Assembly: GCF_001442615.1 (NCBI RefSeq)
Contig: NZ_LMXN01000004.1
Location: 1 to 64,000 of the forward strand
Origin: Algoriphagus resistens
GTDB lineage: Bacteria; Bacteroidota; Bacteroidia; Cytophagales; Cyclobacteriaceae
DNA: 64,000 bases
Direction: 5' to 3'
Shown: piece after piece, positions 12,335 through 30,392 of the stretch
How positions within the stretch are numbered: position 1 is the stretch's first letter
How the letters are laid out: the number at the start of each line of letters is the position of its first letter
Translations under genes and position numbers: made by a program
The notes under the pieces: model-generated
What the model was told of the DNA's origin: nothing
What the model saw: the letters and a program-made list of their open reading frames with translations, nothing else
The model's database searches: none

Positions 12335-13279
12335 ATGAAAAAGAAAAGTGAAAGACTAGCGAAAGAAACCCTTACCAGGGTAATCGGTGAATACCCCGCG
12401 GAACCAAACAATCAAACCCCCGGTCCTTACCTGCTGGTAAGTGGGGGAATACATGGAAATGAGCCAAGTGGCGTCTTGGCCTTGCAGCGCGTTTTCAGAA
12501 AACTTCAAACGACGGAACCTCTACTGAAAGGTAAAATAGTAGGTGTAGCCGGGAATATTGTTGCCTTAAAAAAAGGAGTCCGTCTTATTGACAGGGATCT
12601 TAATAGAATCTGCACATTGGATAATGAAAAGCAACTGAAAGCAGGAAAGAAGATGGACTTCCATGAGGCTTCTGAGTTTAATGAATTGTTAAAAATCGTA
12701 GAAAAGCTCGAAAACGAAGAATTTAATACATCTTTCCATTTCATGGATTTGCACACCACATCCTCAACTACTGCTCCGTATATCAGTGTAAATCGTAACG
12801 AAAGCAGTTTTAAATTTGCCAAGCAGATGCCCTTGCCGGTAGTAAAGGGGATTGAGAAATACATTCCGGGACACTTCGACCATTATCAGACACTCAAAGG
12901 TCACATTGGTTTTACCATGGAAGCTGGACAGCATGACGATCCTACATCAGTAGATTACCACGAAGCCGCGATCTGGGTGATTTTGGTGGATACTGGAATG
13001 CTGGAAAAATCAGCCATACCTTATAAAGATTATTATAAGACACTGGAAAGTGCCTCACCCACTAATGACAATTTTGAGGTGATTTACAGACAGGAAATCA
13101 GTGAAGATCATTACTTCAGAATGGATCCAGGCTATGCAAATTTCACCAAAATCAACAAGGGGCAGCGATTGGCCTGCCTTGATGGAGAAACAATCAAATC
13201 AGATACTAGTGGGCGTGTGTTCCTTCCATTGTATCAGAATCAAGGCTCGGACGGTTTTTTTATAGTCAAACCTGTATGA
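12335..13279 (+). CDS. Succinylglutamate desuccinylase/aspartoacylase-family protein (M14-like)
   Basis: 314 residues with a zinc-carboxypeptidase (M14-like) fold: GGIHGNEPSG gives ligands H40 and E43, and FMDLHTTSS gives the third ligand His near 140. The catalytic Glu is probably in FTMEAGQHDD (about 190-199). The C-terminal ~60 residues form the beta domain seen in AstE/AspA proteins. The substrate is unknown; no arginine-succinyltransferase (ast) genes are nearby, so it is unlikely to be a true AstE. It converges on the GshB-like ATP-grasp gene, and QEGLA metallopeptidase plus ATP-grasp genes are frequent neighbours of such enzymes in my recollection. Confidence 0.85.
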   Translation: MKKKSERLAKETLTRVIGEYPAEPNNQTPGPYLLVSGGIHGNEPSGVLALQRVFRKLQTTEPLLKGKIVGVAGNIVALKKGVRLIDRDLNRICTLDNEKQLKAGKKMDFHEASEFNELLKIVEKLENEEFNTSFHFMDLHTTSSTTAPYISVNRNESSFKFAKQMPLPVVKGIEKYIPGHFDHYQTLKGHIGFTMEAGQHDDPTSVDYHEAAIWVILVDTGMLEKSAIPYKDYYKTLESASPTNDNFEVIYRQEISEDHYFRMDPGYANFTKINKGQRLACLDGETIKSDTSGRVFLPLYQNQGSDGFFIVKPV

Positions 13280-13328
13280 AATTTTGTATGGCTACCGGCA
13301 ATGATGCCAGTAACCTGAATTCCATATC

Positions 13329-13400
13329 AAAAAAAGGCTGTCTTCTATACTGTACCAAGAATATCTGACACTTTATGGCCCTAGTCTATGGAAGCAGCCT
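13329..13400 (-). terminator. Possible terminator of the ATP-grasp gene
   Basis: On the minus strand AGGCTG-CTTCC-ATA (13400-13387) can pair with TATAGAAGACAGCCT near 13348-13334, with a long loop, followed by a run of seven T. The pairing is imperfect and the loop long, so this is tentative. Confidence 0.35.
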
Positions 13401-13423
13401 CTATTTTGTTTTCCGACGAATGC

Positions 13424-14467
13424 TTACAGATTTAGAGTTGCCAAAAAAGCATTGGGAAGTTTTCCGTCATACTGCTTTTGATATTCTACTTTTCTTTCCA
13501 GAGCACGTATTATTTCAGCACCAAAATCCACACCTTCAAGCCTATTCATGGCATTGATAGCACCTGGGCTGTCTAGATTAAGCTCCATGATTTTGTCCCC
13601 CACAATATCAATCCCTGCCAGAAACATCCCATCCTGCACCAATTTTGGTCCGACTATATCGCATAACATCCTTACTTCATCGGTAATCTCGGCATGAATA
13701 GCTTCACCTCCTGTGTGCAGGTTACTTCTGATATCGTTATCATTTTTGCGATTGACTGCAGCTACTTTTCCCTTTATTTCCAGGATTTTACCATTCATCA
13801 TGATCACTCGTATATCTCCGTTTTTTGCCGCAGGCAAGTATTGCTGGGCGATCACAAAACCATACCGGTTGATTGTTTCCACGATTTGGTTAAGGTTCTT
13901 ATCATTGTCAACTAAAAAAACATCCTTGCCACCAGAACCCTGAAGTGGCTTCAGCACAACTTTCCTTTTTTCTTTTTTATAGAACTCCTTGATTTCTTCT
14001 GCGTCCCGGCTTATGATGGTTCTTGGCCTTACTGTTTCCGGAAAATGCTGGAAGTACATCTTATTAAAAGAAGACATCAAAGCATAAGGATCATTCACTA
14101 CAAGAACTCCATTTGCCAAAGCAATCTGACCGAAGACCATCCCCGCAGTCTGTGCCCATGCTCTCTCACCAAACTCTTCACAGGGATTGCTCCTCAGAAA
14201 AAGCACATCCAGGTCATCAGAGGAAATATGTATACGTTCAATTTCGGGACTGTGAATAGCTTCAATATATTTATCCAAATTGCGGAACTTCGTTTTAGGG
14301 GCTTTCACAGCAATAGCCCCCATTTTACCATCTTCCAGATAGCATAGTTGGCCTACACTGATGATATATACCTCATGCTCTCTGCGGAGGGCTGCTGAAG
14401 ACAGCATTGTGGTACTGTATCCTGCCGTCTCGGTTTCTATTTGATTTACTACAAATCCAATTTTCAT
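13424..14467 (-). CDS. GshB-like ATP-grasp ligase
   Basis: 347 residues. ATP-grasp enzymes join a carboxylate to an amine through an acyl phosphate. The N-terminal domain starts MKIGFVVNQIE; the ATP-grasp core has KVVLKPLQGSGGKDVF (about 168-183) and the metal site IMELNLDSPGAIN (about 291-303). Length and layout match bacterial glutathione synthetase, but no gamma-glutamylcysteine synthetase gene is nearby and Bacteroidota rarely use the GshA/GshB pair, so the substrate may differ. It lies 49 bases downstream of the QEGLA peptidase gene and is probably co-transcribed with it. Confidence 0.85.
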   Translation of the reverse strand: MKIGFVVNQIETETAGYSTTMLSSAALRREHEVYIISVGQLCYLEDGKMGAIAVKAPKTKFRNLDKYIEAIHSPEIERIHISSDDLDVLFLRSNPCEEFGERAWAQTAGMVFGQIALANGVLVVNDPYALMSSFNKMYFQHFPETVRPRTIISRDAEEIKEFYKKEKRKVVLKPLQGSGGKDVFLVDNDKNLNQIVETINRYGFVIAQQYLPAAKNGDIRVIMMNGKILEIKGKVAAVNRKNDNDIRSNLHTGGEAIHAEITDEVRMLCDIVGPKLVQDGMFLAGIDIVGDKIMELNLDSPGAINAMNRLEGVDFGAEIIRALERKVEYQKQYDGKLPNAFLATLNL

Positions 14468-14516
14468 TTTTGTGGTGATTAGTGTTAATAGCCAGCTGGC
14501 TAGTTCGGATAAATGG

Positions 14517-16352
14517 TTAATTGGCTAGTTCGGGTAAGGTGAGTCCTTCCTTTAGTTTTTTCAACCGGTCTTGGGCAAAGTCTGTTTTAAAATAGTGTGG
14601 AGTAAGAGGAGAAGGTTTTATGATGTCACGAATACGGAGTTCCTGGATCAATGGAATATGTTTGAATCCAATCTTTCCTACGTATAAGGGCTCCAGCTCC
14701 CCCCCGCTTTGTAAATAATCGATCAGCTTAATCAGTCCCCTTAAATAAATAATATCTTTAGTACATCCACCGCCTTGGTAGGCTCTGGCAGTGATCTGGA
14801 AGGCCTGTTCAGGCAGTGCGTCATAATCCGAGGTGAGTGTATGATAAGTTTCTTCAAAACTCATCCCTTCGGTCACTGCTCTACCGGCAATTACCCTTGC
14901 TGCCAGCGTGCGAAGCCTATTATTGGTCAATCCTCCTACCAGATATTCTGCTAGTACAGCCAAGCCTTCCTGCAACTCATCATAACCTGCAAAACCGCTG
15001 CTCATCTGGCCAAAAGACTGCATTTGGCCATTATAAAATGTGAGTACGTGGGTTCCTATTTCATGGTGGACAAGAGCATTGATACGCTTCTTTGGGATTT
15101 TAAAGCTTGATCCTATATAGAGCTGGCCCCTAGACACGAGCATTCCTACGATATCATTTTTTACTTCAACCTTTGCCTTTAATTGAGGATATACTGTCCT
15201 ATATTCTTTTATTTCGTCGGTACATATTTTTGCCATTTCGTAAGCCTCCACATACTCTGCATCCTCGAAATTATCCGGTGGCAGCGTTTTCAACAGGAGT
15301 TTAGCCGTCTCATGAAGCTCCACCCCAGGAGAACTATACAATCGTATACTACTGTACATGAAATTCTTGGTCCCCCGTTCCTTTAGCATCGTAATTTGCT
15401 TTTCCAGCTCCTCCCGTTTTTCAGTATAGAGAAAAGAAAGTGTAGGATCTTCAATGCTTCTAATATCAATTTGAAAAAGCTCTTCTTTCAGACGATCCGG
15501 GTCGATGGGCAAATTTCGGTAAAGGAATTTCGGGTTTTTACGGTGCCTGTTAGCTATAAATTCTTCCTTTGCCTGCATGGTATTGATCGGGGAAATAAGT
15601 AGAAGAAATTGGTATTTAGCTTCAATTTCTGAAAGTCGGCGATCTACTTCCCACACTTTTTCATCTACAGTGATGCTACCCAGGCGCTGATAATTCTGAA
15701 TATCAAAGGATGTCTGCACCCGGATAAATTCATATACTGCCTTTCTCAATAGGCTTGAAAAGGCAATCTTGAATTCTTTGAATACCATGTAATAAAATTC
15801 TTTCTTGGCCTTATTCTGGAAAAAAGGTGGAATCTCAAGCCCCATCAAAAATATACCCGCTTCTTGGCATTGCTTTAAAGTCAGGAAGTCAACGAGATGA
15901 TCGGGGTGGCGAATTATACTCTCTTTTACTTGCACATCCAGCTCCTGGTGAGTATCACAAAACTTCTGTAAACCTGATTTTAGTGCTTTTACGGTATTGG
16001 GAGCTTTATCTTTGGCAGTTTTGATTACAAATGAGTTACTCTCTTGTTTCCCTATCCAAACCTCAAGAAGCATCACCGAGCCATACTCCTCTGCAAGTTC
16101 TTTCGTTAGCTCTTTTGCTAGTAGGGCGATGTCAGAATTGAAATCCGTGCTGAATTCTGTAATCAGATAGGATGACTCCATTCTTACCAGATCTGGGACT
16201 TTGAAGTGATCTTGTTTTTCTTTCCTATAGATCAAAAGAAAAGGCAGCCTTCTTTCTATCCTCAGCCGGCTTTTTTTTCCAAGTGAAAGATCAAGCATTT
16301 TCCCTGTCTTTAGGGCCTCAGTGAGTGCTTCCTTCGTCTTTTTGTCTATCAT
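14517..16352 (-). CDS. QEGLA-motif (DUF1704, TIGR02421) metallopeptidase-like protein
   Basis: 611 residues. The family is named flavohemoglobin expression-modulating QEGLA motif protein after an early genetic observation; its biochemical role in bacteria is not established. The zinc site is visible as HHEIGTH (about 427-433) with the third ligand Glu in ELQEGLAVLAEYL (about 457-469). Eukaryotic relatives (MATCAP/KIAA0895) are carboxypeptidases that remove the C-terminal tyrosine of tubulin. Its ATG shares one base with the stop of the upstream acidic protein (TAATG), which implies translational coupling; the ATP-grasp gene follows. Confidence 0.9.
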   Translation of the reverse strand: MIDKKTKEALTEALKTGKMLDLSLGKKSRLRIERRLPFLLIYRKEKQDHFKVPDLVRMESSYLITEFSTDFNSDIALLAKELTKELAEEYGSVMLLEVWIGKQESNSFVIKTAKDKAPNTVKALKSGLQKFCDTHQELDVQVKESIIRHPDHLVDFLTLKQCQEAGIFLMGLEIPPFFQNKAKKEFYYMVFKEFKIAFSSLLRKAVYEFIRVQTSFDIQNYQRLGSITVDEKVWEVDRRLSEIEAKYQFLLLISPINTMQAKEEFIANRHRKNPKFLYRNLPIDPDRLKEELFQIDIRSIEDPTLSFLYTEKREELEKQITMLKERGTKNFMYSSIRLYSSPGVELHETAKLLLKTLPPDNFEDAEYVEAYEMAKICTDEIKEYRTVYPQLKAKVEVKNDIVGMLVSRGQLYIGSSFKIPKKRINALVHHEIGTHVLTFYNGQMQSFGQMSSGFAGYDELQEGLAVLAEYLVGGLTNNRLRTLAARVIAGRAVTEGMSFEETYHTLTSDYDALPEQAFQITARAYQGGGCTKDIIYLRGLIKLIDYLQSGGELEPLYVGKIGFKHIPLIQELRIRDIIKPSPLTPHYFKTDFAQDRLKKLKEGLTLPELAN

Positions 16353-16645
16353 TACTTTTCCTCTTCATCCGCGTTACTGTAGAAATTATTTTCCTCGTCT
16401 TCTGACCCGATTCTTTCCTGCTCATCATCCAACTCGCTCCCAGGCACATCCAAATCATCCCCGGTGAAATCTACCTTCCTTTTTCTCTCCAGAAGTTGCT
16501 CGTCATCTCCTCCATCATCGCTTAGATTGGCATCTCTTGGCCCGAGAGCTTCCAGATCTTCCTTGGTGACTTTAGCTTCACTGGCAAGGTCCTTCGTAGA
16601 TTTTTCATCGGTAGCTTTGCTATTCTGTGGCTTAGTAGTTTCCAT
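16352..16645 (-). CDS. Small, very acidic, low-complexity protein of unknown function
   Basis: 97 residues with 16 Asp and 16 Glu against about 13 Lys/Arg (counted by hand), giving a net charge near -19. There is no signal peptide or membrane helix. It is predicted disordered, with an acidic C-terminal tail (GSEDEENNFYSNADEEEK). It overlaps the QEGLA gene by one base, so it is made in step with the peptidase. I know no function for it. It could be a substrate or regulatory partner of the adjacent peptidase and ligase, which is a guess from position only. Confidence 0.75.
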   Translation of the reverse strand: METTKPQNSKATDEKSTKDLASEAKVTKEDLEALGPRDANLSDDGGDDEQLLERKRKVDFTGDDLDVPGSELDDEQERIGSEDEENNFYSNADEEEK

Positions 16646-16675
16646 GGTGTTATTCGTTTAGTTAGGCTTATTATA

Positions 16676-16696
16676 AAAGGCAATCGAAATGCCTTT
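16676..16696 (-). terminator. Small hairpin between the acidic protein and the M23 gene
   Basis: AAAGGCA (16676-16682) and TGCCTTT (16690-16696) form a 7-bp stem with a 7-base loop, followed on the minus strand by TTATAATAA. It could weakly terminate the M23 transcript, about 160 bases after its stop. The rest of 16646-16859 shows nothing I recognise. Confidence 0.35.
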
Positions 16697-16859
16697 AATT
16701 GATTTAAGCCTATTAAAAAATCTGAAACAGTCTGATAAGGCAAATAGCCGGGCTTTATTCGTATTGAAAAGATTTAAAGCAAACTTGGCAGCTGAGCCTT
16801 AGCTATAGCTGAGTAGAAATATTCCCAATCTGTGTAAGGAAATAGTATCTTCTGGTTTT

Positions 16860-18170
16860 CTAAAAATTGCCCCTCTTTAAAAACAATAAATTCTCATCCC
16901 GGTCCTGAATCATCTCATATTCTTGTGCCGAGCCAAGTTTACTAAAATTCTCCAACTGTATCAGCAATGAATCTAGGACAAATGGATTTGGAGAGGTATA
17001 AGCATACACTGTCGAGCTGGCCATCGGGCTGGCCTCAGGCTGTGAAAGTAAACTTTGGGAAAGATACCCATTTATCCCTTCTACAGTTTGTACCTGAACC
17101 CAATCAAAAGTAGCTGCTGATACATAAACCAGGGCATTTGCATCTAGCTTTGATATCACTTCTGATTTAGTCGTAGGAAGTCTTCTTAAATTTGCCTGGG
17201 ATACATTCACTTTCATTACCGGGGGGAATTCCCTCTCGGGAAGTTCTGAAACAACCTCAAATTCAGTTTGAATGGCGGGATAAGGATTGATCGCTCCATG
17301 TTGATATATACCAAAGTGCAAATGTGGGGCAGTAGTTCTGGCATTCCCCGAGTTTCCGACCAATCCCAATGTATCTCCAGGATTTACCCGCTGCAGGTTG
17401 CTCACGAGTTGACTGTCCAAATGAGCAAAATATAGATTCCAGTTACGCTCTCTATCTCTTACCCACACCTGTTTCCCTCCCAGTCCCCGATTACGAACAG
17501 CCGTAACTACACCATCCACAGGAGCCAGCACCGGGGTGCCCCTTGCTGCAAAAATATCCACTCCTTCATGCGATCTTCTTCCAGCATCCCGCGCATCCCC
17601 CCAGACACTCTGGATAGCCCTGCTGTTTTTTCCCTGGACAGGAAATACAGCATAAGTTGCAGTACCATATATTCTGACCTGAAAGTTGCCTTCTCCAAGC
17701 AGCTCAGGCTGGATTCTGAGTAGGTATCCGCCGGTTTTTTCCGCTTCGAACTTCACAGAATCATTTTGTATTGCATAGGACTTCAGCTCCTCCCATGCTG
17801 GTCCATCCAGTAGGTCAACAATTAACTCGCTACTGTCTTTTGCCTGCCATTGGACCAGAATAGTAATGGAAGCGCCCTGCTCCAGCTGGAATCTCCAGGC
17901 TTTGGCCTCTATACTTTTAGACTTAAAACTCCCCTGAATAGCTATGGGAATCTCCAGATCAGCAGCGTTAAGTATCGCCTTACCTGCAGCGCTATGCCAT
18001 TCTTCACCGATTTTGGTTGCCGCAATTCCCGAATTCTCCAAGGTGCTTAGGTACTGAGTTCTGGCAGAACTGGATTTAAAAATTCTAAGAGTCTGATTGT
18101 TGCAGGAAGAAACCAACAGCACTAGGACGGATAAAACAACCAGAGGAAATGCTGATGGGTTTCTTTTCAT
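16860..18170 (-). CDS. M23-family peptidoglycan endopeptidase lipoprotein with SH3 domain
   Basis: 436 residues. Lipoprotein signal with lipobox LVSSC (Cys23). A beta-rich middle domain (about 70-175) precedes the LytM/M23 domain: HEGVDIFAARGTPVLAPVDG (about 199-218, zinc His and Asp) and PHLHFGIYQHG (about 281-291, HxH). It ends with an SH3b domain (about 315-375) likely to bind cell wall. It should cut peptide cross-links of peptidoglycan from the periplasmic face. It lies 90 bases after the catalase gene on the same strand. Confidence 0.9.
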   Translation of the reverse strand: MKRNPSAFPLVVLSVLVLLVSSCNNQTLRIFKSSSARTQYLSTLENSGIAATKIGEEWHSAAGKAILNAADLEIPIAIQGSFKSKSIEAKAWRFQLEQGASITILVQWQAKDSSELIVDLLDGPAWEELKSYAIQNDSVKFEAEKTGGYLLRIQPELLGEGNFQVRIYGTATYAVFPVQGKNSRAIQSVWGDARDAGRRSHEGVDIFAARGTPVLAPVDGVVTAVRNRGLGGKQVWVRDRERNWNLYFAHLDSQLVSNLQRVNPGDTLGLVGNSGNARTTAPHLHFGIYQHGAINPYPAIQTEFEVVSELPEREFPPVMKVNVSQANLRRLPTTKSEVISKLDANALVYVSAATFDWVQVQTVEGINGYLSQSLLSQPEASPMASSTVYAYTSPNPFVLDSLLIQLENFSKLGSAQEYEMIQDRDENLLFLKRGNF

Positions 18171-18260
18171 TGTTTCGAATGGGATTGTGTTCCTTGCTGC
18201 TAGCTTAATTTTAAGTAAAATATGCAGGCAAAATCAACGTGTGAAATTGCCTGCCAGTAG

Positions 18261-20402
18261 TTAAACAGGAATTCTCGTGGCATCCTCTCTCTCCCAAATC
18301 CTATGCTGGGCAACCCCCTCAATAAACGCTGCTGCATTCTGATCAAAAAGAACCCCTTTCGGATTGGCGTTCTTAGAAGCATAGGTCATATCCCAAAGTT
18401 GCTCTCCACCTCCGTTGACAGCGATATACTTGTAATGCTTATAGGCTTCATCCACGAAGCGGATTGCATCAGGATTTTTATGCAATGTCTCCATACTCTT
18501 AGCTCCACCGGGTATAAACACTGCATCAAACAGCACAGATGAAGTGGTCAACAGACTATGATCGACTTTAATTGCTGAGCCATTGGAATCTGCGATAGAT
18601 CCTGCGTGTGCGCTGATGATTTTCACCTGGCCCCCTTCCTTTTCTATGGCATTTTTAAAGCCTTCAAATGACTCGGCATCCACACCGTCATTCGCCAGGG
18701 CAGCAATCATCCTGCCTTTGATTCCTTTGCCGGGTCTTGCCATAAGGCTTAGTGCTGGAGATTTTTCTACAGATGGGCTGACATCAATAGGCTGATAATC
18801 TTTAGGGTCAGCATCTGCAGGAAAACTATGATTCAAAGGCTCTTTTGGTGTATTTATCGGATTGATTCCGAGTCCTTCAGCGACAGCTTTCGCCAACTCA
18901 TTGTTGATATACATAAGCATACCTACCATTCGCTCCCTGATTTCCTCACTCTTCACCTTTCCCAGCTCGAACCGAAGGGCGGAGATAATATGATCTTGTT
19001 CCATTTCAGTCTGGCTTTCAAAGAAGAGTTTAGCCTGGCTAAAGTGATCCATAAAGCTTCTGCTTCTCTTCCTTATCTTATGCCCTTCGATTTTTTCATG
19101 ATGCGAGACAAAACCCCCTTCAGACATTTTTGCCTGAAATGGACATCCTCCACCTATATTATTCGGATGGTAGCTACTTTGTCCAGTATTGATCGTCTGC
19201 CGCATGTGTCCTCCCCGTTGATTGTTATGAACTGGAGCGATTGGTCTATTGATCGGAATTTCCGCAAAATTGGGACCTCCCAATCGGGAAAGTTGCGTAT
19301 CAGTATAGGAAAATAATCTTCCCTGAAGAAGCGGATCATTAGTAAAGTCTATTCCAGGAACCAGATGTCCAGGATGAAATGCGATCTGCTCCGTCTCTGC
19401 GAAGAAGTTGGTGGGGTTTCTATCAAGGACCAGCTTACCGACCAGCTTCACAGGTACAAGTTCCTCGGGGATGATTTTGGTTGCATCCAGTAGATCAAAG
19501 TCAAATTTATGTTCATCCTGTTCAGGCACTAGCTGCACACCCAGCTCCCACTCCGGAAAGTTTCCGCTTTCAATTGCATTCCAAAGATCCCTTCTGTGGA
19601 AATCGGGATCCTGCCCAGAGATTTTTTGGGCTTCATCCCAGGTGACAGAATGGGTTCCTGCCACAGGCTTCCAGTGAAACTTCACGAAAAATGATTCATT
19701 CTTTTTATTGATAAAGCGGAATGTATGCACGCCAAAGCCTTCCATCATACTGAAACTGCGGGGCAATGCGCGATCACTCATCACCCACATAATCATATGC
19801 ATGCTTTCTGGCATCAGGGATATAAAATCCCAAAACGTATCGTGTGCAGAAGCTGCCTGAGGAATTTCGTTGTGCTGCTCTGGTTTTACCGCATGGATCA
19901 GGTCGGGAAATTTCATTGCGTCCTGGATGAAAAAGACCGGAATGTTGTTACCTACCAAATCGTAATTCCCCTCCTCTGTATAGAATTTCACAGCAAATCC
20001 TCTTACATCCCGCGCTAGGTCAGTTGATCCTTTGAATCCAGCCACAGTACTGAATCTGGTGAATACAGGGGTTTTCTTCCCCTTTTCACTAAGAAAGCCA
20101 GCTTGGGTGAATTCTGAAAAGTCTCCGTATGATTCAAAATACCCATGCGCTCCAGCACCCCGGGCATGGACTATTCTCTCTGGGATTCGCTCATGGTCGA
20201 AATGTGTCATTTTCTCGCGAAAATGAAAATCTTCCATCAATGTCGGCCCCCGCTCCCCGGCAAGAAGGGAATTTTGATCATCGTTGATTCTCATCCCCTG
20301 GTTGGTGGTCATAGCTTCCCCGCTACCATCCTCAGTATTCATGTAGAGGTCATCGGTTTTTGGGTTTTCAGCGTTCCTTTCAGCTTTTTCTTTTTCAGTC
20401 AT
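18261..20402 (-). CDS. katE: Large-subunit catalase, HPII (KatE) type
   Basis: Converts hydrogen peroxide to water and oxygen. 713 residues, the length of clade II large-subunit catalases. Catalytic His in RIVHARGAGAHG (about 76-87), Asn in YDLVGNN (about 150-156), haem-ligand Tyr in LFSYTDTQLSRLG (about 362-374). The extra C-terminal domain (about 570-713; KGRMIAALANDGVDAESF, DAVFIPGGAKSM) is the class I glutamine amidotransferase/DJ-1-like fold typical of this clade. The N-terminus is rich in charged residues. It is probably transcribed together with the M23 gene. Confidence 0.96.
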   Translation of the reverse strand: MTEKEKAERNAENPKTDDLYMNTEDGSGEAMTTNQGMRINDDQNSLLAGERGPTLMEDFHFREKMTHFDHERIPERIVHARGAGAHGYFESYGDFSEFTQAGFLSEKGKKTPVFTRFSTVAGFKGSTDLARDVRGFAVKFYTEEGNYDLVGNNIPVFFIQDAMKFPDLIHAVKPEQHNEIPQAASAHDTFWDFISLMPESMHMIMWVMSDRALPRSFSMMEGFGVHTFRFINKKNESFFVKFHWKPVAGTHSVTWDEAQKISGQDPDFHRRDLWNAIESGNFPEWELGVQLVPEQDEHKFDFDLLDATKIIPEELVPVKLVGKLVLDRNPTNFFAETEQIAFHPGHLVPGIDFTNDPLLQGRLFSYTDTQLSRLGGPNFAEIPINRPIAPVHNNQRGGHMRQTINTGQSSYHPNNIGGGCPFQAKMSEGGFVSHHEKIEGHKIRKRSRSFMDHFSQAKLFFESQTEMEQDHIISALRFELGKVKSEEIRERMVGMLMYINNELAKAVAEGLGINPINTPKEPLNHSFPADADPKDYQPIDVSPSVEKSPALSLMARPGKGIKGRMIAALANDGVDAESFEGFKNAIEKEGGQVKIISAHAGSIADSNGSAIKVDHSLLTTSSVLFDAVFIPGGAKSMETLHKNPDAIRFVDEAYKHYKYIAVNGGGEQLWDMTYASKNANPKGVLFDQNAAAFIEGVAQHRIWEREDATRIPV

Positions 20403-20808
20403 GATACAGTGGTTTTAGTGGTTGTGTTACCAAAAGCAACTAAAAACATTCCAAGCCTCAGTTTGTACGGATTAAATCCTTGACAGAACACAAATCGAAG
20501 AAATGCATAGCAGTTGAAAAAAATAAATGGCTGACAAGGACCTGCCACATAGGTCGCCATAACAGCGATTCAGGACAATCAGGGCACAAGAAGATTTCGA
20601 CAAACAGTCCAGCAAATACTTCCTTCCGATTACCAGATAGGATAACCCTTATGAAAAATCAGTTGCCGAAGTCGGTAAATCTTATCATCATGATTCACTA
20701 AACTGTCTCGCAAATTCCTCATAATGAGGTCAAAAATTCAATAGACTATCCGATTGATTTGCAAAAAAAGGATGGCACAAGGATCTCCCTCCCCCATCCT
20801 TTCCTATA
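20403..20808. other. Intergenic region, no gene recognised
   Basis: This stretch upstream of katE holds a 73-codon plus-strand open frame (20480-20701) with no family resemblance, no ribosome-binding site I can see and no signal sequence, so I do not call it. The only structured element is the minus-strand terminator at 20762-20802. katE promoter elements are expected here but I cannot place them. Confidence 0.5.
20762..20802 (-). terminator. Rho-independent terminator of the small lipoprotein gene
   Basis: On the minus strand AAAGGATGG (20802-20794) pairs with CCATCCTTT (20775-20767) and is followed by a T-run to about 20763. It lies six bases after the stop of the gene at 20809-21210. Confidence 0.75.
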
Positions 20809-21210
20809 TTAATTCTCAGATTTGCGTTTACCTTCTTCATCATAAGTAAAGGTCTGGTTTGGACTTCCCGGTATTCTGAATTCAAGTTCGTAATACGTGA
20901 TATTATTTTCCACAAATCTTCTTTTGACAACTATACTATCCGGATGAATATCACTGGTCTTTTCGATTACAGTAACCAATTCCTGTGGCAAATTAATAGA
21001 ATCTGTAGGACTGATAATCACCGGTATCCTTGAACCATCCGTCAATCTCATACTTGTGTCCGTGCCCGCCTTCATCTTTTCCTCTATAGAGGTAGACTCT
21101 TCAACTTCCATTGTACCCTCATCGGTGATGCTTCCATATTCCTTTTTTTCGTTACAGGCTATTATCACCGAGGACAAGGCCAATGCAATTAAAATTAGTT
21201 GATTTTTCAT
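20809..21210 (-). CDS. Small putative lipoprotein
   Basis: 133 residues with an N-terminal lipoprotein signal (MKNQLILIALALSSVIIAC; Cys19). The mature part opens with an acidic linker, then a folded ~65-residue region (PQELVTVIEKTSDIHPDSIVVKRRFVENNITYYELEF) resembling small PepSY/DUF-like beta proteins, in which a following residue pattern ends with FTYDEEGK. I cannot assign a family with confidence. It has its own terminator. Confidence 0.7.
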   Translation of the reverse strand: MKNQLILIALALSSVIIACNEKKEYGSITDEGTMEVEESTSIEEKMKAGTDTSMRLTDGSRIPVIISPTDSINLPQELVTVIEKTSDIHPDSIVVKRRFVENNITYYELEFRIPGSPNQTFTYDEEGKRKSEN

Positions 21211-21406
21211 AATTGGTTGATTTAATTGAATAGGTTGATATTCATTTGATAAACAAAATCCAACCCAAATCTCTTCAACCCCTGCCTTATCAGGCCGCTG
21301 AGCGGATCAGGGTTCTTTTTCAGTTGGTTTTTCAAAGAAACCTTAACTGACCCCTTACAAATCTCCCCGGTTTGAGGAATTTCCCCCGCTGTTTATTGCT
21401 GATAAT

Positions 21407-22621
21407 TTACCTATTACTGATTTTATCCCATAGTCTCTCACCCCATTTGCTAAGGAAGTTTTGTTCATCTGCGCCCTTTATATCCTCCTCGCCTAGGGCA
21501 TAGCCCAGTGGGTGAAGTGCCGGAGTTGCGTCAAAAACAATCTTGGAAATACCTGCAATCGGGATACTCAAGATCATTCCGGCTACACCCCAAATCGAGC
21601 CACCTACAACTACTACCATAATGGTAACCAGTGGATTGAGCTCTACCTTACTTCCTACTACATAGGGTTCCAGAATATAACTTTCCACGAACTGGGCTAC
21701 TCCAAAAGTCAGGGTGACTCCTACAAGCCCCCATAATTCAGCACCTGCAAATACAGCCATAATCAATGAAAGTCCGTAACCAATTATATTTCCTACATAG
21801 GGGATAAGGGAAAGAACAGCAGCAATTAAGCTAATGAGAATGGCATTTTCTATCCCGGAAATGGACAGACCAATGCTATAAATGATTGCCAAAAAAGCTA
21901 TCAATGTCAATCTTCCTACAATGAAATTCAGAGCCAGATCGATGGAATGGTTCATGACCTCTTCGGCTTCTTTTCTATTGCCAATACTAAAGAACTTTAA
22001 AATAGAACGCTTCACCTTGTTCCTGTACAGCAGCATGAAAAAAAGATAAATCAATGTAAGCGCAGCATTGCCAAGAAAGCCAAAGAAGTTCTTTAAGATC
22101 ATGCCTATTTCTTGCGAGGCATTAGAAACCAGTTTTTTAGGCGAAGATCCTTGGGATGTAAAATTTCCAGTTGTATCGGACTTTTTATTTGACGCTTCCG
22201 TACTCCCACTTTCTTCAGAATTGTCAGAGCTGTTGGCTGCTTGAGGATAAAGCATCATAAATTGCTGCTGAAAATCCAGCCCTGTTTTATCTGAAATCAC
22301 TTGCTGCATCTCTTCCAGTTTCGGCTTCATTTTTTCTTTAATTTCCGGCCAGCGCCCGGAAATATTCGAAACCTGTGCAGATAGGATCACAAAAAAAGAT
22401 GCAAAAACCAGTAAACTTAATAGCACACTTAAAAAAGCAGCTCCCCCCCGGGATAGCTTCCAACTTTCTAATTTCCTGCAAAGTGGTATGCAAATTAGAG
22501 TCAAAAGAATTGCAACTGCGACAGGTTTTAAAAAGCCAGCTGCTTGCATGGCACCTAAAACAAAAAAATAAGTGCCTAAAACCAGAAGCGTTATAAGTAT
22601 AAGAATTTCTTTTGACTTCAT
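21407..22621 (-). CDS. AI-2E (PerM/TqsA/UPF0118) family transporter
   Basis: 404 residues with the AI-2E transporter layout. Two N-terminal membrane helices (about 6-50) and a third (about 60-85) are followed by a long soluble insertion (about 90-175) rich in Ser/Asn. A second group of helices follows (about 180-370), with the family motifs ALTLIYLFFMLLYRNKVKR, SLIPYVGNIIGYGLSL and GSKVELNPLVTIMVVVVGGSIWGVAGMIL. Members export autoinducer-2 or ions such as sodium; the substrate cannot be told from sequence. The soluble insertion looks longer than usual. Confidence 0.9.
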   Translation of the reverse strand: MKSKEILILITLLVLGTYFFVLGAMQAAGFLKPVAVAILLTLICIPLCRKLESWKLSRGGAAFLSVLLSLLVFASFFVILSAQVSNISGRWPEIKEKMKPKLEEMQQVISDKTGLDFQQQFMMLYPQAANSSDNSEESGSTEASNKKSDTTGNFTSQGSSPKKLVSNASQEIGMILKNFFGFLGNAALTLIYLFFMLLYRNKVKRSILKFFSIGNRKEAEEVMNHSIDLALNFIVGRLTLIAFLAIIYSIGLSISGIENAILISLIAAVLSLIPYVGNIIGYGLSLIMAVFAGAELWGLVGVTLTFGVAQFVESYILEPYVVGSKVELNPLVTIMVVVVGGSIWGVAGMILSIPIAGISKIVFDATPALHPLGYALGEEDIKGADEQNFLSKWGERLWDKISNR

Positions 22622-22683
22622 TTCTTAGTTATAAATCCAATACAGCTCTCTTTTCCAGTAATCTTCAAGTAATACAGGTTTTT

Positions 22684-23964
22684 CTAATTGCCCGCATAAG
22701 CAATTTTCCATAGCGTGTTTCCGCTGTCATCATTGACCAAAAGTGAGCCATCAGGCAAAACCGAGACGTCCACTGGTCGTCCATATACTTCCGAACTTTC
22801 CGCATCAGATACAAATCCCGTAAGAAAGTCCTGTGGTTCACCGGCAGGTTTCCCATTCTCAAATGGCACAAAAAGCACCTTATAACCAGAAAGCTTTCTA
22901 CGGTTCCATGAGCCATGTTGTCCCACAAAAGCGCCGTTTTTATATTCCTCAGGAAAGGTAGATCCATCGTAGAATGTCAGCCCCAATGAAGCGGTATGAC
23001 TTCCAACCGGGACATCGGGAACAATCGCTTTTTCTACCAGTTCAGGAGCTTCCCCTTCCATCCTTGGATCTTCGATCTGTCCAAAATAGGAATAGGGCCA
23101 GCCATAAAAACCACTCTTTTTCACACTGGTAATGTAATCAGGTACCAGATCATCTCCCAATTCGTCACGTTCATTGACAGCAGTCCAAAGCTCCTTAGTA
23201 GTGGGATTCCAGGACATCCCTACTGGATTTCTGAGGCCATTTGCATAGATAACTTCACCAGACCCGTCAGGATTGACTTCCAATATTCCAGCTCTTCTAT
23301 GCTCTTCTTCCATGCCATACTCCGCATTGTTGCTCGCTGATCCTACAGAAATATAAATCTTGGTTCCGTCTTCATTGGCGATCAGATTTCTTGTCCAGTG
23401 ATTATTATATCCACCAGCAGGCAGATCAACTATCTTCTCCCCTTCCCCATCAAGCTTCAACTGTCCTTCCTGATAGGAAAACCTATATAATCCATCTGTA
23501 TTCGCTATATAGAAATAGTCGTCCAATATGAGCATACCATAAGGACTGTTTAAACCTTCTTTGAAAACTTCACGGGATTCATATTCCCCGTTTTTATCCT
23601 CGTCCCTGAACATGGTGATTCGATCCGCACTTCCTTTTGTGTCGCTTTCGACTACGAAAATATCCCCATTGGGTCCCACATAGGTATTTCGGGGATTATC
23701 CAGATTCTCTGCAAATTTGGTAACTGTAAACCCAGCAGGGGCAGTAGGCATTTTACCTTCTGGCCAGTCCACGATTTTGCTATGGTTCTTCACTGATTCC
23801 GAAGAATATGGTGCAGGCAAGATTAGTTCACCGATTGCCGTCTGCACAGTATCGGCACTGGTTTGGGAAATCTCTTCTTTCTCTTCCTTAGATACTTTTT
23901 GCTGACAGGAAGCTATACTTATTGTTGCCATCAACAGAAACGGCAGTGTAATTTTAGTATTCAT
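22684..23964 (-). CDS. PQQ-dependent sugar/sorbosone dehydrogenase-like lipoprotein
   Basis: 426 residues from ATG 23964; an upstream start at 24006 would bury the signal, so I reject it. Lipobox SIASC near residue 20. The remainder is a six-bladed beta-propeller of the glucose/sorbosone dehydrogenase family: PRNTYVGPNGDIFVVES, NNHWTRNLIANEDGTKIYISVGSASN, ANGLRNPVGMSWNP, GSWNRRKLSGYKV and GRPVDVSVLPDGSLLVNDD. These usually oxidise sugars with PQQ and Ca. No PQQ synthesis genes are in the window, so the cofactor would be scavenged or the enzyme used differently. Confidence 0.85.
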   Translation of the reverse strand: MNTKITLPFLLMATISIASCQQKVSKEEKEEISQTSADTVQTAIGELILPAPYSSESVKNHSKIVDWPEGKMPTAPAGFTVTKFAENLDNPRNTYVGPNGDIFVVESDTKGSADRITMFRDEDKNGEYESREVFKEGLNSPYGMLILDDYFYIANTDGLYRFSYQEGQLKLDGEGEKIVDLPAGGYNNHWTRNLIANEDGTKIYISVGSASNNAEYGMEEEHRRAGILEVNPDGSGEVIYANGLRNPVGMSWNPTTKELWTAVNERDELGDDLVPDYITSVKKSGFYGWPYSYFGQIEDPRMEGEAPELVEKAIVPDVPVGSHTASLGLTFYDGSTFPEEYKNGAFVGQHGSWNRRKLSGYKVLFVPFENGKPAGEPQDFLTGFVSDAESSEVYGRPVDVSVLPDGSLLVNDDSGNTLWKIAYAGN

Positions 23965-24144
23965 GGTGGGTTTGGTTTGATTTTCGGAGTCAAAAAGATC
24001 AATCATGCAGCCAAAAAGGGTACCGGCGAATAGTGCGCTTTAAAGACGTGCAAAAGCACCTTTAATCATTAAGAAAATCACCCCCTTTTTTGCACATGTG
24101 AAAATTTATTCCCAATTCGGGTTGTGAATCCTACGGCCCAGAAA

Positions 24145-26571
24145 CTAGCTATCCAACCTTTCAACTGCTTTTTCAATTGAAATTCCTCTGCCGAGAATCT
24201 CTGTAAAAAGATCAGGGTACTTTTTAATTCTATCCTTGACCGTAAATATGGTGAAGTCATTCTTATCGAGTTTGCCATTCACTTCCTTCCATAACAACGG
24301 AGTGGAAACAGTGGCTCCCGGCTTAGGACGTACGCAATAGACAGCAGCAAGTGTCTGTCCTGGACGATTTTGCAGATAATCCAGATAGATTCTTCCTTTT
24401 CTGGCTTTGAGCGGTCTTTCCATCGTGGTGAGCTTTGGCAACCGCTCCTGGATGATTGTGCACAAAAGCCTACAAAAATCCCTCCCTTCCCCAAATGTAT
24501 AATTTGCTCCCAACGGAATGTATATGTGAAGCCCGCTTGAACCTGAGGTTTTGCAGTACCCCTCCACCCTGATATCACTTAGGAGTTGATGGAAAGCCTG
24601 AGCAACTTCTATCACTTCTTTAAAATTGTTCTTGTCTGAAGGATCCAGATCCACAACGATGTAATCGGGCCTATCCAATGAACTGATTCTCGCGTTCCAC
24701 GGGTTTAGTTCTATGCAACCAAGATTTGCCATATAAATCAGTGTGGCCTCATTTTGACAAAGCATGTAATCAATGTCCTTCTCAGAAGATTCTGAGAAGA
24801 TGCCAGTAGTCTCAATCCAATCAGGGTAACCTTCAGGTGTATCTTTTTGGTAGAACCCATCTTTGTCGATGCCATTGGGGTGACGGTGGAGATTTTGCGG
24901 ACGGTCTTTCAGGAAGGGCAAAATGTATTCGGAGATCGAAATATAATAGTCGATCAAATCGTATTTGGTGATCCCTTCCTTCGGCCAAAGTGGCTTCTCC
25001 AGATTACTTACTGGAACATTGATTCCATCAATTTCGAGGGAATTAGCTGAACTTCGGCTGGATTCTCCCAGGGTTTCAGGGCTTTCGATTTTTAAATCCT
25101 GAGGAAACTTATCATTTCGCAGACTCTTGAAAACGGGCTGACGAAGTCGTTTGTTTTCAGTCCATTCCGCAAAGGCCACTTCTGCTACCAGCACTGGATG
25201 TAGCCACACAGCCTTCCTTCCATTGAGGTTGATTTTGTCAGTAAAAGGTGAGTTTGTCTTCCTAATTTTATCAAACTGAGAAATTAATTCCCGTTGGTTT
25301 TTAATAGAAAAACCTGTACCACAATTCCCCACATAAATCAATTCTCCCTTTTGATGCAATCCCAAAATCAAAGACCCAAAAGGCCGGTTCTCTGATTTGG
25401 TGTAGCCGCAGATGATTGTTTCTATACTTTCCTGTGTCTTGAATTTCATCCAAACTTCCGTCCGAGCGCCTGGGTAATAGAAAGAATCAGCTTTCTTTCC
25501 GATGATTCCTTCCAGCCCTTTCTGTTTCACTTCTTCGAAAAAAGCTTTTCCCCCTCCCACTATATGCTCACTATAACGTATGTGGGGCAACCCCTTGACC
25601 AAGGTTTGGAGTAACTCTTTTCGTTCTTCCAGCTTGAAATGAACAGTACTATGGCCATCCAAATAGAGTAAATCAAAAACCACATAAACCAGCTCCCCTT
25701 TGGGGTCATCTGAATAATGCTGTAGCCATTGGAAATTTGAAATACCGTTCTCATCCAAACTCACCACTTCCCCATCGAGAATAGCACTTTTGGGAAGTTG
25801 CTTTAAGCTTTCAATAAGCGTAGGATACGTATCAGAATAATCCACCCCTGTACGGGAATAGAGTGCAGTGGAACTGGAGGAGTGGTTACAAATCATCCTA
25901 TAGCCATCCCATTTGATCTCATAAAGCCAGTTTTTGGAAGGACTGAACTTCAAATCTTTACTCGAGGAAGCCAGCATAGGCGACACTTGATGTTTCAACG
26001 TAACTGCCCTTCCAGGTTTGGTTCTCTCCTCTGCTTTGGTCTCACCCAGATGAAGATTTGCATCATATTCCATGTCTGTGGCAAACTCATCCTTCTTTTT
26101 GATCAAAAGCCACTGGGGCTGCTTGCCTTCAAACCGGGTTCTGACCAAAGCAAAATCCCCCCTTAACTTGGTTCCGAAGAACGTTATCTTCAGGTCTCCT
26201 TCTTCAAACATCTTAAGGGCAGCGTCCTTGCTGTCCGACATGGGTTCATAAGTTCCCGAATCCCAAATGGCCATTTCCCCTGCTCCATAATTTCCCTTGG
26301 GAATGGTTCCCTGGAAGTCCAGGTATTTGAGAGGATGATCTTCTGTCTGCACTGCCAGTCGTTTATCTCCCGCGTTCAGTGAAGGTCCTTTGGGTACGGC
26401 CCAGCTTTTCAGCACCCCGTCCATTTCCAGTCTTAAATCGAAATGGAGGCGGCTTGCATCATGGCGTTGCACTACAAACCGAAGTTTACCTACTTGCTGA
26501 CCAAGGTCACCTCTGGGTTCATTTGTTTTCTTGAAATCACGTTTCTTATTGTATTCTTCCAATGCCATCAC
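24145..26571 (-). CDS. ligD: DNA ligase D (LigD), multi-domain NHEJ ligase
   Basis: 808 residues. The start is GTG 26571 (four-base overlap with ku, GTGA) or ATG 26568. Domain order is phosphoesterase, ligase, polymerase. The PE domain (about 1-165) has RHDASRLHFDLRLEMDG. The ATP-dependent ligase (about 200-500) has the adenylation Lys in YEIKWDGYRMI (about 223) and DGEVVSLDENG. The primase-like polymerase (about 520-800) has DYIVVDLDPSD and HIYIPLG. It repairs double-strand breaks with Ku. It is last in the DAG kinase-ku-ligD operon. Confidence 0.97.
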   Translation of the reverse strand: MMALEEYNKKRDFKKTNEPRGDLGQQVGKLRFVVQRHDASRLHFDLRLEMDGVLKSWAVPKGPSLNAGDKRLAVQTEDHPLKYLDFQGTIPKGNYGAGEMAIWDSGTYEPMSDSKDAALKMFEEGDLKITFFGTKLRGDFALVRTRFEGKQPQWLLIKKKDEFATDMEYDANLHLGETKAEERTKPGRAVTLKHQVSPMLASSSKDLKFSPSKNWLYEIKWDGYRMICNHSSSSTALYSRTGVDYSDTYPTLIESLKQLPKSAILDGEVVSLDENGISNFQWLQHYSDDPKGELVYVVFDLLYLDGHSTVHFKLEERKELLQTLVKGLPHIRYSEHIVGGGKAFFEEVKQKGLEGIIGKKADSFYYPGARTEVWMKFKTQESIETIICGYTKSENRPFGSLILGLHQKGELIYVGNCGTGFSIKNQRELISQFDKIRKTNSPFTDKINLNGRKAVWLHPVLVAEVAFAEWTENKRLRQPVFKSLRNDKFPQDLKIESPETLGESSRSSANSLEIDGINVPVSNLEKPLWPKEGITKYDLIDYYISISEYILPFLKDRPQNLHRHPNGIDKDGFYQKDTPEGYPDWIETTGIFSESSEKDIDYMLCQNEATLIYMANLGCIELNPWNARISSLDRPDYIVVDLDPSDKNNFKEVIEVAQAFHQLLSDIRVEGYCKTSGSSGLHIYIPLGANYTFGEGRDFCRLLCTIIQERLPKLTTMERPLKARKGRIYLDYLQNRPGQTLAAVYCVRPKPGATVSTPLLWKEVNGKLDKNDFTIFTVKDRIKKYPDLFTEILGRGISIEKAVERLDS

Positions 26572-27338
26572 GATGCTTTTTTACGTTTTTCCAAACTTGC
26601 CTTTAACTGGGCCATCAGATCTTTGGCAGGCGTATCCTTGGGCTCAAACTTCTTGACAACAGCCTTCTTTCCTTTTGATTTTGCCTTTATCACTTTCATT
26701 AGTTGCTTAGTATACTGGTCTTTATACTTCGAGGGGTCAAATTTTTCGCTGTATTGGCTGATGAGGGACTGCGCCATTTCCACTTCTTTTTTAGTGGCTT
26801 TGGAACTGGAAATTTTTAGCTCTGAAGGACTCCGGATTTCATCCGAAAACCTGATGACATGTAGAACCAATGCATTTTCATACACCCCGATCAGACTGAG
26901 GTTTTCTTTTTGGCGCATCACAAAGGTGGCCAGCCCCAGTTTATTTGTCTTTTTCAATGCATCGCGCAAAAGATTATAAGCCTTGCCACCTCCCTTCTGG
27001 GGTTCAAGGAAATAGGGTTTTTTAAACAACATATCTGCAACATCTGCTTCATCCACAAAAGCTTCGATTTCCACGACCTTGCTTTTTTTGGCATTTGCCT
27101 GGTCAAAATCCTCGTCATCCAGAATAATGTATCTGTCGTCAATTCTATAGCCTTTGACTATGTCCTTCCATTCCACCTCCTTGCCGGATTTCTCATTTAT
27201 GCGCTGATACCGGATCCTGGCATGATCTTTCGAATCGAGCATATCCAGATCTATCCTTCTGCTTTGGGAAGCTGAATACATTTTGATCGGGATATTGACC
27301 AATCCAAAACCTAAGGAGCCATTCCATATTGATTTCAT
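26568..27338 (-). CDS. ku: Ku protein, non-homologous end joining
   Basis: 256 residues, the usual size of bacterial Ku. It starts MKSIWNGSLGFGLVNIPIKMYSA, the family hallmark, and contains the beta-barrel ring (RIDLDMLDSKDHARIRYQRINEKSGKEV). A Lys-rich C-terminal tail ends KASLEKRKKAS. Ku homodimers hold broken ends and recruit LigD. It overlaps the upstream DAG kinase-like gene by four bases and ligD by four, so the three are tightly coupled. Confidence 0.97.
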   Translation of the reverse strand: MKSIWNGSLGFGLVNIPIKMYSASQSRRIDLDMLDSKDHARIRYQRINEKSGKEVEWKDIVKGYRIDDRYIILDDEDFDQANAKKSKVVEIEAFVDEADVADMLFKKPYFLEPQKGGGKAYNLLRDALKKTNKLGLATFVMRQKENLSLIGVYENALVLHVIRFSDEIRSPSELKISSSKATKKEVEMAQSLISQYSEKFDPSKYKDQYTKQLMKVIKAKSKGKKAVVKKFEPKDTPAKDLMAQLKASLEKRKKAS

Positions 27339-30359: not shown

Positions 30360-30392
30360 ACTCGGACTGACGCTGGAATAAAATACATCAAA

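Follow-up and report, generated by a model that had tools for sequence, protein, structure and literature searches.

A trio of QEGLA peptidase, GshB-like ligase and amidohydrolase genes in Algoriphagus resistens as a candidate acidic-peptide module

This analysis concerns a cluster of four genes in a stretch of 64,000 nucleotides of Algoriphagus resistens DNA (contig NZ_LMXN01000004.1, positions 1 to 64,000; hereafter the window). The cluster encodes a long-form QEGLA metallopeptidase, a GshB-like ATP-grasp ligase (LIG-A), a hydrolase related to AstE and aspartoacylase, and a small acidic protein. By sequence comparison across lineages, the first three are kept together as a trio, in which the AstE-type gene stands in for N-formylglutamate amidohydrolase (FGase).

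The genes and proteins of the locus

Open reading frames (ORFs) were taken throughout from our own simple ORF caller rather than a trained gene finder. A check of the window's ORFs reproduced all four placements given earlier, and the features of the locus are the following.

12335..13279, plus strand: AstE/AspA-family (M14-fold) amidohydrolase, 314 amino acids, PF24827; convergent to the ligase gene and in the place of FGase
13424..14467, minus strand: GshB-like ATP-grasp ligase (LIG-A), 347 amino acids; GSH-S_ATP, PRK12458
14517..16352, minus strand: QEGLA metallopeptidase, long form, 611 amino acids, PF08014; degenerate FGase-like N-terminal domain and MATCAP-type zinc carboxypeptidase domain
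14964..14972, minus strand: QEG motif, QEGLA residues 461-463, presumed third metal ligand
15048..15065, minus strand: HEIGTH (HExxxH) zinc-binding motif, QEGLA residues 430-435, with H, E and H invariant
15711..16280, minus strand: QEGLA N-terminal domain, residues 25-214, FGase fold without metal ligands
16352..16645, minus strand: acidic protein, 97 amino acids, overlapping the QEGLA start

The TAA stop codon of the acidic gene overlaps the ATG start codon of QEGLA (TAATG), the spacing between QEGLA and the ligase is 49 bases, and 144 bases separate the end of the ligase gene from the end of the convergent AstE-type gene. The initial annotation had described this coupling, the 32 acidic residues of the 97-residue protein, the ligase 49 bases past QEGLA and the convergent fourth gene, and the sequence and ORF coordinates bear out each of these points. 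Promoter and terminator scans at the locus yielded matches at chance level only. A contig scan with a single window protein found only two near relatives of the locus, in Algoriphagus chordae and A. antarcticus.

The QEGLA protein scores 285.2 bits against the MATCAP family PF08014 (cut-off 27) and 316.2 bits against NCBIfam TIGR02421. Because the latter value lies under the model's cut-off of 338.65, we class the protein under PF08014 alone, as a long-form variant. Residues H430, E431 and H435 of the HEIGTH motif, together with QEG at 461-463, are invariant among 41 aligned long-form proteins. The AlphaFold2 model of the protein has a predicted local distance difference test score (pLDDT) of 91.4 overall, and its peptidase part adopts a MATCAP fold when aligned with human MATCAP 7z5g (Z 24.5, root-mean-square deviation (rmsd) 3.0, 291 residues aligned). 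A phmmer search of the PDB with QEGLA gave no match to MATCAP, whose sequences are too distant. The QEG motif presumably supplies the third metal ligand, given its likeness to the EEG motif of TMCP1/MATCAP. Like the MATCAP/TMCP family of tubulin carboxypeptidases (KIAA0895L/KIAA0895), QEGLA has this fold, an HExxxH motif and a downstream EG motif with the presumed third ligand; unlike them, it is bacterial, is fused to a degenerate FGase-like domain and adjoins an ATP-grasp ligase. That EEG motif, and the trimming of tubulin tails by the eukaryotic MATCAP relatives, are described in one report (PMC10499314).

Pfam annotates nothing over the first ~235 residues of QEGLA, on which the initial annotation was silent as well. 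On the strength of sequence profiles and a structural model, we assign these residues of long-form QEGLA to a degenerate FGase-like domain without metal ligands. Modelled alone by AlphaFold2, the domain has a pLDDT of 86.8. The assignment follows VIA-align, in which the N-terminal part has its best match in the N-formylglutamate amidohydrolase 2q7s (Z 13.1, rmsd 3.1, 176 residues aligned) against Z 10.7 for the runner-up row, and the following profile tests. At E values up to 1, a profile built from 47 N-terminal domains picked up every one of the 10 fused FGase proteins, with a best E value of 3.5e-17, as well as 8 separate FGases, the best at 1.6e-7. Its matches in the fused proteins extended into the linker toward the peptidase, and the search was rerun with a profile limited to residues ~1-205. 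This shorter profile, again at E up to 1, matched all 10 fused FGases (best 1.3e-8), 7 separate FGases (best 2.3e-5) and, save for left-out duplicate loci, no other ORF. Other comparisons are less clear-cut and leave the assignment short of certainty. For the N-terminal domain alone, Foldseek puts nucleoside phosphorylases first (TM-scores ~0.3-0.4), a profile-profile comparison of small alignments of the domain and FGase gave a probability of 3.9% (E 0.011), and the reverse profile, built from FGase, matched none of the N-terminal domains.

Three motifs, which from established knowledge of the FGase fold we take to hold the metal, were counted in 30 separate FGases and in 47 N-terminal domains: H[DN]G is present in 24 of the former and none of the latter, [DE]LNR in 21 and none, and DxH[ST] in all 30 and in 1. 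The domain shares the fold of FGase (PF05013) but has lost its metal-ligand motifs. Probably it is the remnant of an FGase-QEGLA fusion, an arrangement that persists in other lineages. In the simplest history, the direction of which we infer, the FGase part of such a fusion died and a separate FGase or AstE gene now supplies the activity.

The convergent hydrolase gene encodes a protein that matches PF24827 (AstE_AspA_cat) at 80.4 bits, above the cut-off of 25. The zinc motif HGNE is present in 16 of 16 homologues and DLH in 14 of 16, whereas the stricter RDLNR occurs in only 4 of the 16. The protein has this catalytic domain and the motif HGNE...DLH in common with AstE and AspA; unlike them, it lies far under the cut-offs of the AstE and aspartoacylase equivalogs (43.4 bits against 305.65 and 48.7 against 180) and is paired with QEGLA and a ligase. 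Of the earlier description of the gene as M14-type, the likeness to aspartoacylase stands; the parallel to cytosolic carboxypeptidases does not, since the protein is a relative of succinylglutamate desuccinylase and aspartoacylase. A paralogue of this type (35-38% identity, frames of 408-423 amino acids) is carried by seven genomes of the genus that lack QEGLA (G111, G338, G342, G346, G347, G355 and G356).

The ligase matches GSH-S_ATP at 167 bits (cut-off 23). Of the solved structures, that of E. coli GshB comes closest (8e-32). The two proteins are 28% identical in a whole-length comparison, and the ligase has a diverged N-terminal half and a C-terminal extension. Ten positions that we take to be active-site residues (K125, K160, D208, R210, R225, R233, N235, D273, E281 and N283 in E. 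coli GshB numbering) are shared without change by GshB, RimK and four ligases of the module. With RimK and tubulin tyrosine ligase (TTL) the protein would have ATP-grasp carboxyl-amine ligase chemistry in common, but by cut-offs it is a member of neither family (TTL PF03133, 12.6 bits against 20.1; rimK_fam, 94 bits against 143). One second match to it was found in its own genome at E values up to 1e-10; it is weak (31%, 45.7 bits, residues 169-328) and RimK-like by our reading.

Could the ligase then be a second glutathione synthetase, with the hydrolases recycling the thiol or a close analogue of it? The relationship to GshB is in keeping with this, plasmid records label the ligase glutathione synthetase or synthase, and PRK12458, the best of three NCBIfam glutathione synthetase models, is approached to within 5 bits (403 against 408). 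However, the cut-offs of all three models are missed (the others at 215.8 against 272 and 201.2 against 299.05). In addition, the gamma-glutamylcysteine ligase family PF04107 is absent from 10 of 31 LIG-A genomes, the window's included, and PF04262 is absent from all 19 LIG-A genomes tested, the ten without PF04107 among them. The check covered these two ligase families. Moreover, a glutathione pathway gives no reason for the FGase or AstE partner. We thus consider a role in glutathione metabolism quite improbable. A plain glutathione synthetase, the alternative offered by the initial annotation, is unlikely because the cut-offs are missed and both of these ligase families are absent from the window's genome. 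The ligase is like GshB and PRK12458 in whole-length homology and ATP-grasp positions, but differs in scoring under the curated cut-offs and in occurring where the tested gamma-Glu-Cys ligases are absent. Its pairing with FGase or AstE also calls the annotation "glutathione synthetase" into question.

Some variants of the ligase were seen as well. Two tandem LIG-A ligases, 49% and 47% identical to the window's, lie downstream of QEGLA in locus L093 (genome G399). A more distant GshB-like ligase (27-32% identity) occurs in G076, G194, G311, G318, G349 and G353, five of which lack QEGLA. A candidate ligase fusion in L037 (a 914-amino-acid ORF) was rejected because on visual inspection it looked like another reading frame read through in GC-rich DNA.

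Conservation of the trio and exchange of its hydrolase

Searches for QEGLA/PF08014 were positive in 16 of 296 genomes of a phylum sample, 11 of 72 of the genus and 44 of 196 of the family; three family samples of 196 genomes were taken as one draw, and their listed genomes agree. Loci were retrieved for 43 of the 44 family genomes (the window counted), G418 being left out as a fragment, and plasmid loci were added. Also left out of the counts were L027 and L028 (the same as L050 and L049), L046-L048 (found via the acidic protein, with no QEGLA) and the second half of a split ORF in L095. L100 and L101 (both Sinorhizobium meliloti) and the two loci of G388 were each counted, and L102 comes from a record flagged as unverified organism. 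Loci were typed by counting ORFs with profiles built here.

The 74 distinct QEGLA loci comprise 48 of the long form, 11 in which FGase is fused to the peptidase and 15 of a short form. LIG-A lies directly downstream of QEGLA on the same strand in every one of the 48 long-form loci. A more distantly related ligase, LIG-B, lies upstream instead in 8 of the 11 fused loci and in all four short loci of family f7, and two long-form loci, L031 and L032, have both ligases. Within the genus, QEGLA and LIG-A occur in identical sets of 11 genomes out of 72. In the family, 24 genomes match LIG-A strongly, and by our count each of them is among the 44 that are QEGLA-positive (Fisher 5e-19, kinship ignored); G544, which is not QEGLA-positive, holds only a LIG-A fragment with stops. 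QEGLA and ligase distances correlate at r=0.92 over 46 loci, as expected for jointly inherited genes.

The third gene of the trio varies in kind. An FGase gene (PF05013 in the members scanned) lies upstream of QEGLA in 26 of the 48 long-form loci, mostly overlapping it or a few bases away, and an AstE-type gene is present in 16; six loci have neither and none has both. PF05013 is missing from the whole genome in all 16 AstE-type genomes, compared with 7 of 9 others tested in which it is present. Among the 11 QEGLA-positive genomes of the genus, 10 have an AstE match above 400 bits and the eleventh, G353, has FGase. In another family (L030), AstE follows QEGLA and the ligase on the same strand. 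The AstE label needs three changes on the QEGLA tree, which implies either a single replacement followed by losses or a small number of separate events. The fourth gene, despite its opposite strand in the window, is by this exclusivity borne out as a true member of the module, as the initial annotation had suspected. FGase (PF05013) itself is both a separate partner and the fold relative of the N-terminal domain of QEGLA.

The same trio is found far from the window's lineage. FGase-QEGLA-ligase is present in all four further alphaproteobacterial plasmid loci (L129-L132), and a Photobacterium sp. plasmid carries the ligase with a fused FGase-QEGLA; an Aeromonas record has a solo QEGLA. In Sinorhizobium meliloti 2011, FGase-QEGLA-ligase lies on pSymB, which makes the function testable in a tractable organism. 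The arrangement is not chance, recurring as it does in the genus, in the family and, with FGase for AstE, on Pseudomonadota plasmids. The four-gene neighbourhood proposed at the outset is conserved for ligase, QEGLA and hydrolase, and is not conserved for the acidic gene.

Other arrangements of these families were noted. Short solo QEGLAs, with no ligase or FGase nearby, occur in L043, L057-L065, L104 and L133; in the tree, which did not include L133, they form their own clade with HEAYVH/HELFVH-type motifs. In G388, G399, G439, G462, G503 and G517, an FGase gene lies within ~1 kilobase of a GCS2-type carboxylate-amine ligase gene, a parallel ligase-amidohydrolase pairing.

Possible functions of the module

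Our best explanation, to which we give moderate confidence, is that QEGLA, the GshB-like ligase and the FGase or AstE amidohydrolase constitute one conserved cytosolic module that makes and recycles a small acidic peptide. In an ATP-dependent step, the ligase would extend the peptide by an amino acid at its carboxyl end, QEGLA would trim carboxy-terminal residues, and the FGase or AstE enzyme would remove an N-acyl or other end-capping acidic group. The dead FGase-like domain may still bind such a group and so hold the substrate. Relatives of FGase and AstE have N-acyl-glutamate or N-acyl-aspartate as their substrates. PghL, a fold neighbour, cleaves gamma-polyglutamate (PMC6506827). Because of these substrates and this activity, a small gamma-glutamyl or N-acyl-glutamyl peptide appears the most likely substrate; the product may serve as an osmolyte or as a stress and nitrogen store. 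In six loci of family f7 (L031, L032 and L039-L042), a sodium:dicarboxylate symporter-family gene stands ahead of LIG-B and FGase-QEGLA, which also speaks for this explanation; the Pfam scan covered the symporter of L041. The gene ahead of that symporter is, in most of the six, chorismate-synthase-like by eye.

Several observations weigh against this explanation. Eleven short QEGLA loci and 3 of the 11 fused loci have no ligase within 4 kilobases, and QEGLA can therefore act without one. The six long-form loci with neither FGase nor AstE lack them within 4 kilobases, one of them at a contig end, and G444 and G524 have no FGase genome-wide. The AstE loci belong mostly to one clade, and the exclusivity of the two hydrolases rests on few independent events. 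In 15 of the 16 AstE loci the gene is encoded on the other strand and so is not co-transcribed with its partners. Finally, the stress context considered below is partly local gene order and includes a single expression datum, a 27.5-fold change (PMC10308900).

To our knowledge, and as far as we found, MATCAP-fold peptidases have a tested role in eukaryotes only, as carboxypeptidases of tubulin tails, and we know of no annotation for their bacterial relatives other than "flavohemoglobin expression-modulating QEGLA motif protein". The pairing with a ligase and FGase or AstE gives one bacterial branch of this fold a pathway context. Titles and abstracts among the literature matches listed, a set outside which most subscription journals fall, hold no description of the ligase/QEGLA/FGase-AstE trio. 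Iyer, Aravind and colleagues reportedly predicted amidoligase-peptidase gene neighbourhoods in 2009 and may mention parts of the trio. Those neighbourhoods likewise couple peptide ligases to unrelated peptidases.

The main rival is a reversible modification of protein tails. The target would be the acidic C-terminal tail of some protein not encoded at this locus, extended by the ligase and trimmed back by QEGLA and the M14-fold hydrolase. RimK adds residues to ribosomal protein S6, and the cycle of tubulin tyrosine ligase and MATCAP is comparable. The positions that the ligase shares with RimK and the tightness of the QEGLA-ligase pair speak for such a role, as does the MATCAP fold of QEGLA, given that eukaryotic relatives trim tubulin tails (PMC10499314). 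However, we found no small protein or protein with a tail that accompanies the module from lineage to lineage, the ligase is GshB-like and scores under the TTL cut-off, and the FGase or AstE partners suggest small N-acyl amino acids. Together these points make tail modification unlikely, although it is the foremost of the alternatives to a small-peptide module.

A bolder proposal by analogy, which we regard as rather unlikely, is that the tubulin tyrosination/glutamylation cycle has a bacterial forerunner in this module. An ATP-grasp ligase and a MATCAP-type carboxypeptidase, found together in two phyla, might add and remove residues at an acidic tail of a protein or of a small carrier peptide, while FGase or AstE clears an end group and the dead FGase domain binds the tail.

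Alternatively, the enzymes could serve catabolic salvage, in which FGase or AstE and QEGLA degrade N-acylated or acidic peptides, whether imported or remnants of osmolytes, while the ligase recovers one of the fragments. In favour are the hydrolase nature of two of the three enzymes and the symporter-family gene next to them in the six f7 loci. The expression datum mentioned above concerns a QEGLA gene of Photobacterium damselae, which changes with salinity (PMC10308900); we read this as induction at low salt because the gene is grouped with one that is raised at 1% NaCl. The fused FGase-QEGLA with ligase on a Photobacterium plasmid points in the same direction. That long-form QEGLA is so strictly paired with a ligase that consumes ATP, however, favours a cycle over plain breakdown, and salvage is in our estimation also unlikely.

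Gene context and the salinity change are consistent with a stress or osmotic role. Over 16352-27338 of the window, the minus strand carries genes for Ku, LigD, a 440-amino-acid protein, an AI-2E-type transporter (named via its L027 homologue), a catalase with a DJ-1-like C-terminal domain, an M23 protein, the acidic protein and then the module. The principal upstream features are these.

16860..18170, minus strand: M23 peptidase protein
18261..20402, minus strand: long catalase with C-terminal domain
24145..27338, minus strand, that of the module: LigD and Ku, non-homologous end joining

Elsewhere, DUF892 and DUF2383 genes precede QEGLA in L092, and one plasmid locus has a DUF2934 gene, a glycogen synthase gene and a mechanosensitive channel gene nearby. 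The possibility of an anti-phage defence system was rejected: PADLOC, run on six proteins, returned only one weak match, of 14.7 bits, to the ligase.

The acidic protein and other neighbours

The acidic protein of the window (computed isoelectric point 4.1) is the sole ORF there with more than 22% aspartate and glutamate, among non-overlapping ORFs of at least 50 amino acids, and it reaches no Pfam or NCBIfam family cut-off. Its gene adjoins QEGLA in only 10 of the 48 long-form loci. Nine of these belong to the genus, with the stop and start codons overlapping in 7 and 3 bases apart in 2; the tenth is a divergent copy 287 bases from QEGLA in G405. In L074 the acidic gene is several kilobases from QEGLA. 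In L055, a 62-amino-acid acidic ORF that lies 92 bases before QEGLA matches weakly (E 0.04) and is perhaps a relic.

In the family, 22 of 196 genomes have the acidic protein, and 8 of these also have QEGLA (expected 4.9, Fisher p=0.11), leaving 14 without it; QEGLA is within 1.5 kilobases in only 1 of the 21 other family acidic-protein loci retrieved. G309 and G312 keep the acidic protein without QEGLA, ligase or AstE. In G312 the genes that lie past AstE in the window keep their order, the trio is absent as one block, and the catalase and M23 genes are missing too; in G309 the M23 and acidic genes are still adjacent. Conservation in the protein is internal (DxPGxELDDxxE...GxEDEENNxYS), and its last residues vary.

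The initial annotation had suggested the acidic C-terminal tail of this protein as the target of the enzymes and had proposed its co-occurrence with QEGLA and ligase genes as a check. Neither idea holds for the module at large, as the acidic gene is not beside the other 38 long-form loci, the shared genomes number 8 at p=0.11, and the conserved block is not the tail. A constant partnership is thus rejected, and the acidic protein is probably a locally linked neighbour rather than a constant part of the module. It is best seen as sitting at a site where the trio entered or left. Might it nevertheless be a real substrate or regulatory carrier in the window's genus only, through a lineage-specific recruitment? 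The tight junctions in the nine genus loci, and the divergent copy in G405, would fit such a recruitment. However, the protein persists without the trio in G309 and G312, trio-bearing G373 has at most a weak relic of it, most family genomes that encode it lack QEGLA, and its conserved part is not its tail. We therefore regard recruitment within the genus as very improbable.

A different conserved acidic protein, of 91-109 amino acids and ending near ...PSDERDRYxxD, is encoded just beyond AstE in AstE-type loci that lack the window's acidic protein (L029:6362-6691, L087:6491-6787 and L088:5066-5341). Farther along the window, at 29376-33643 on the plus strand, genes for a pyridoxal-phosphate-dependent enzyme (PF00291), an FAD-NAD(P)-binding protein (PF13454) and an ornithine/arginine-decarboxylase-like protein stand in a row. 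At a guess, this row encodes a small-molecule pathway of an opine or siderophore-like kind.

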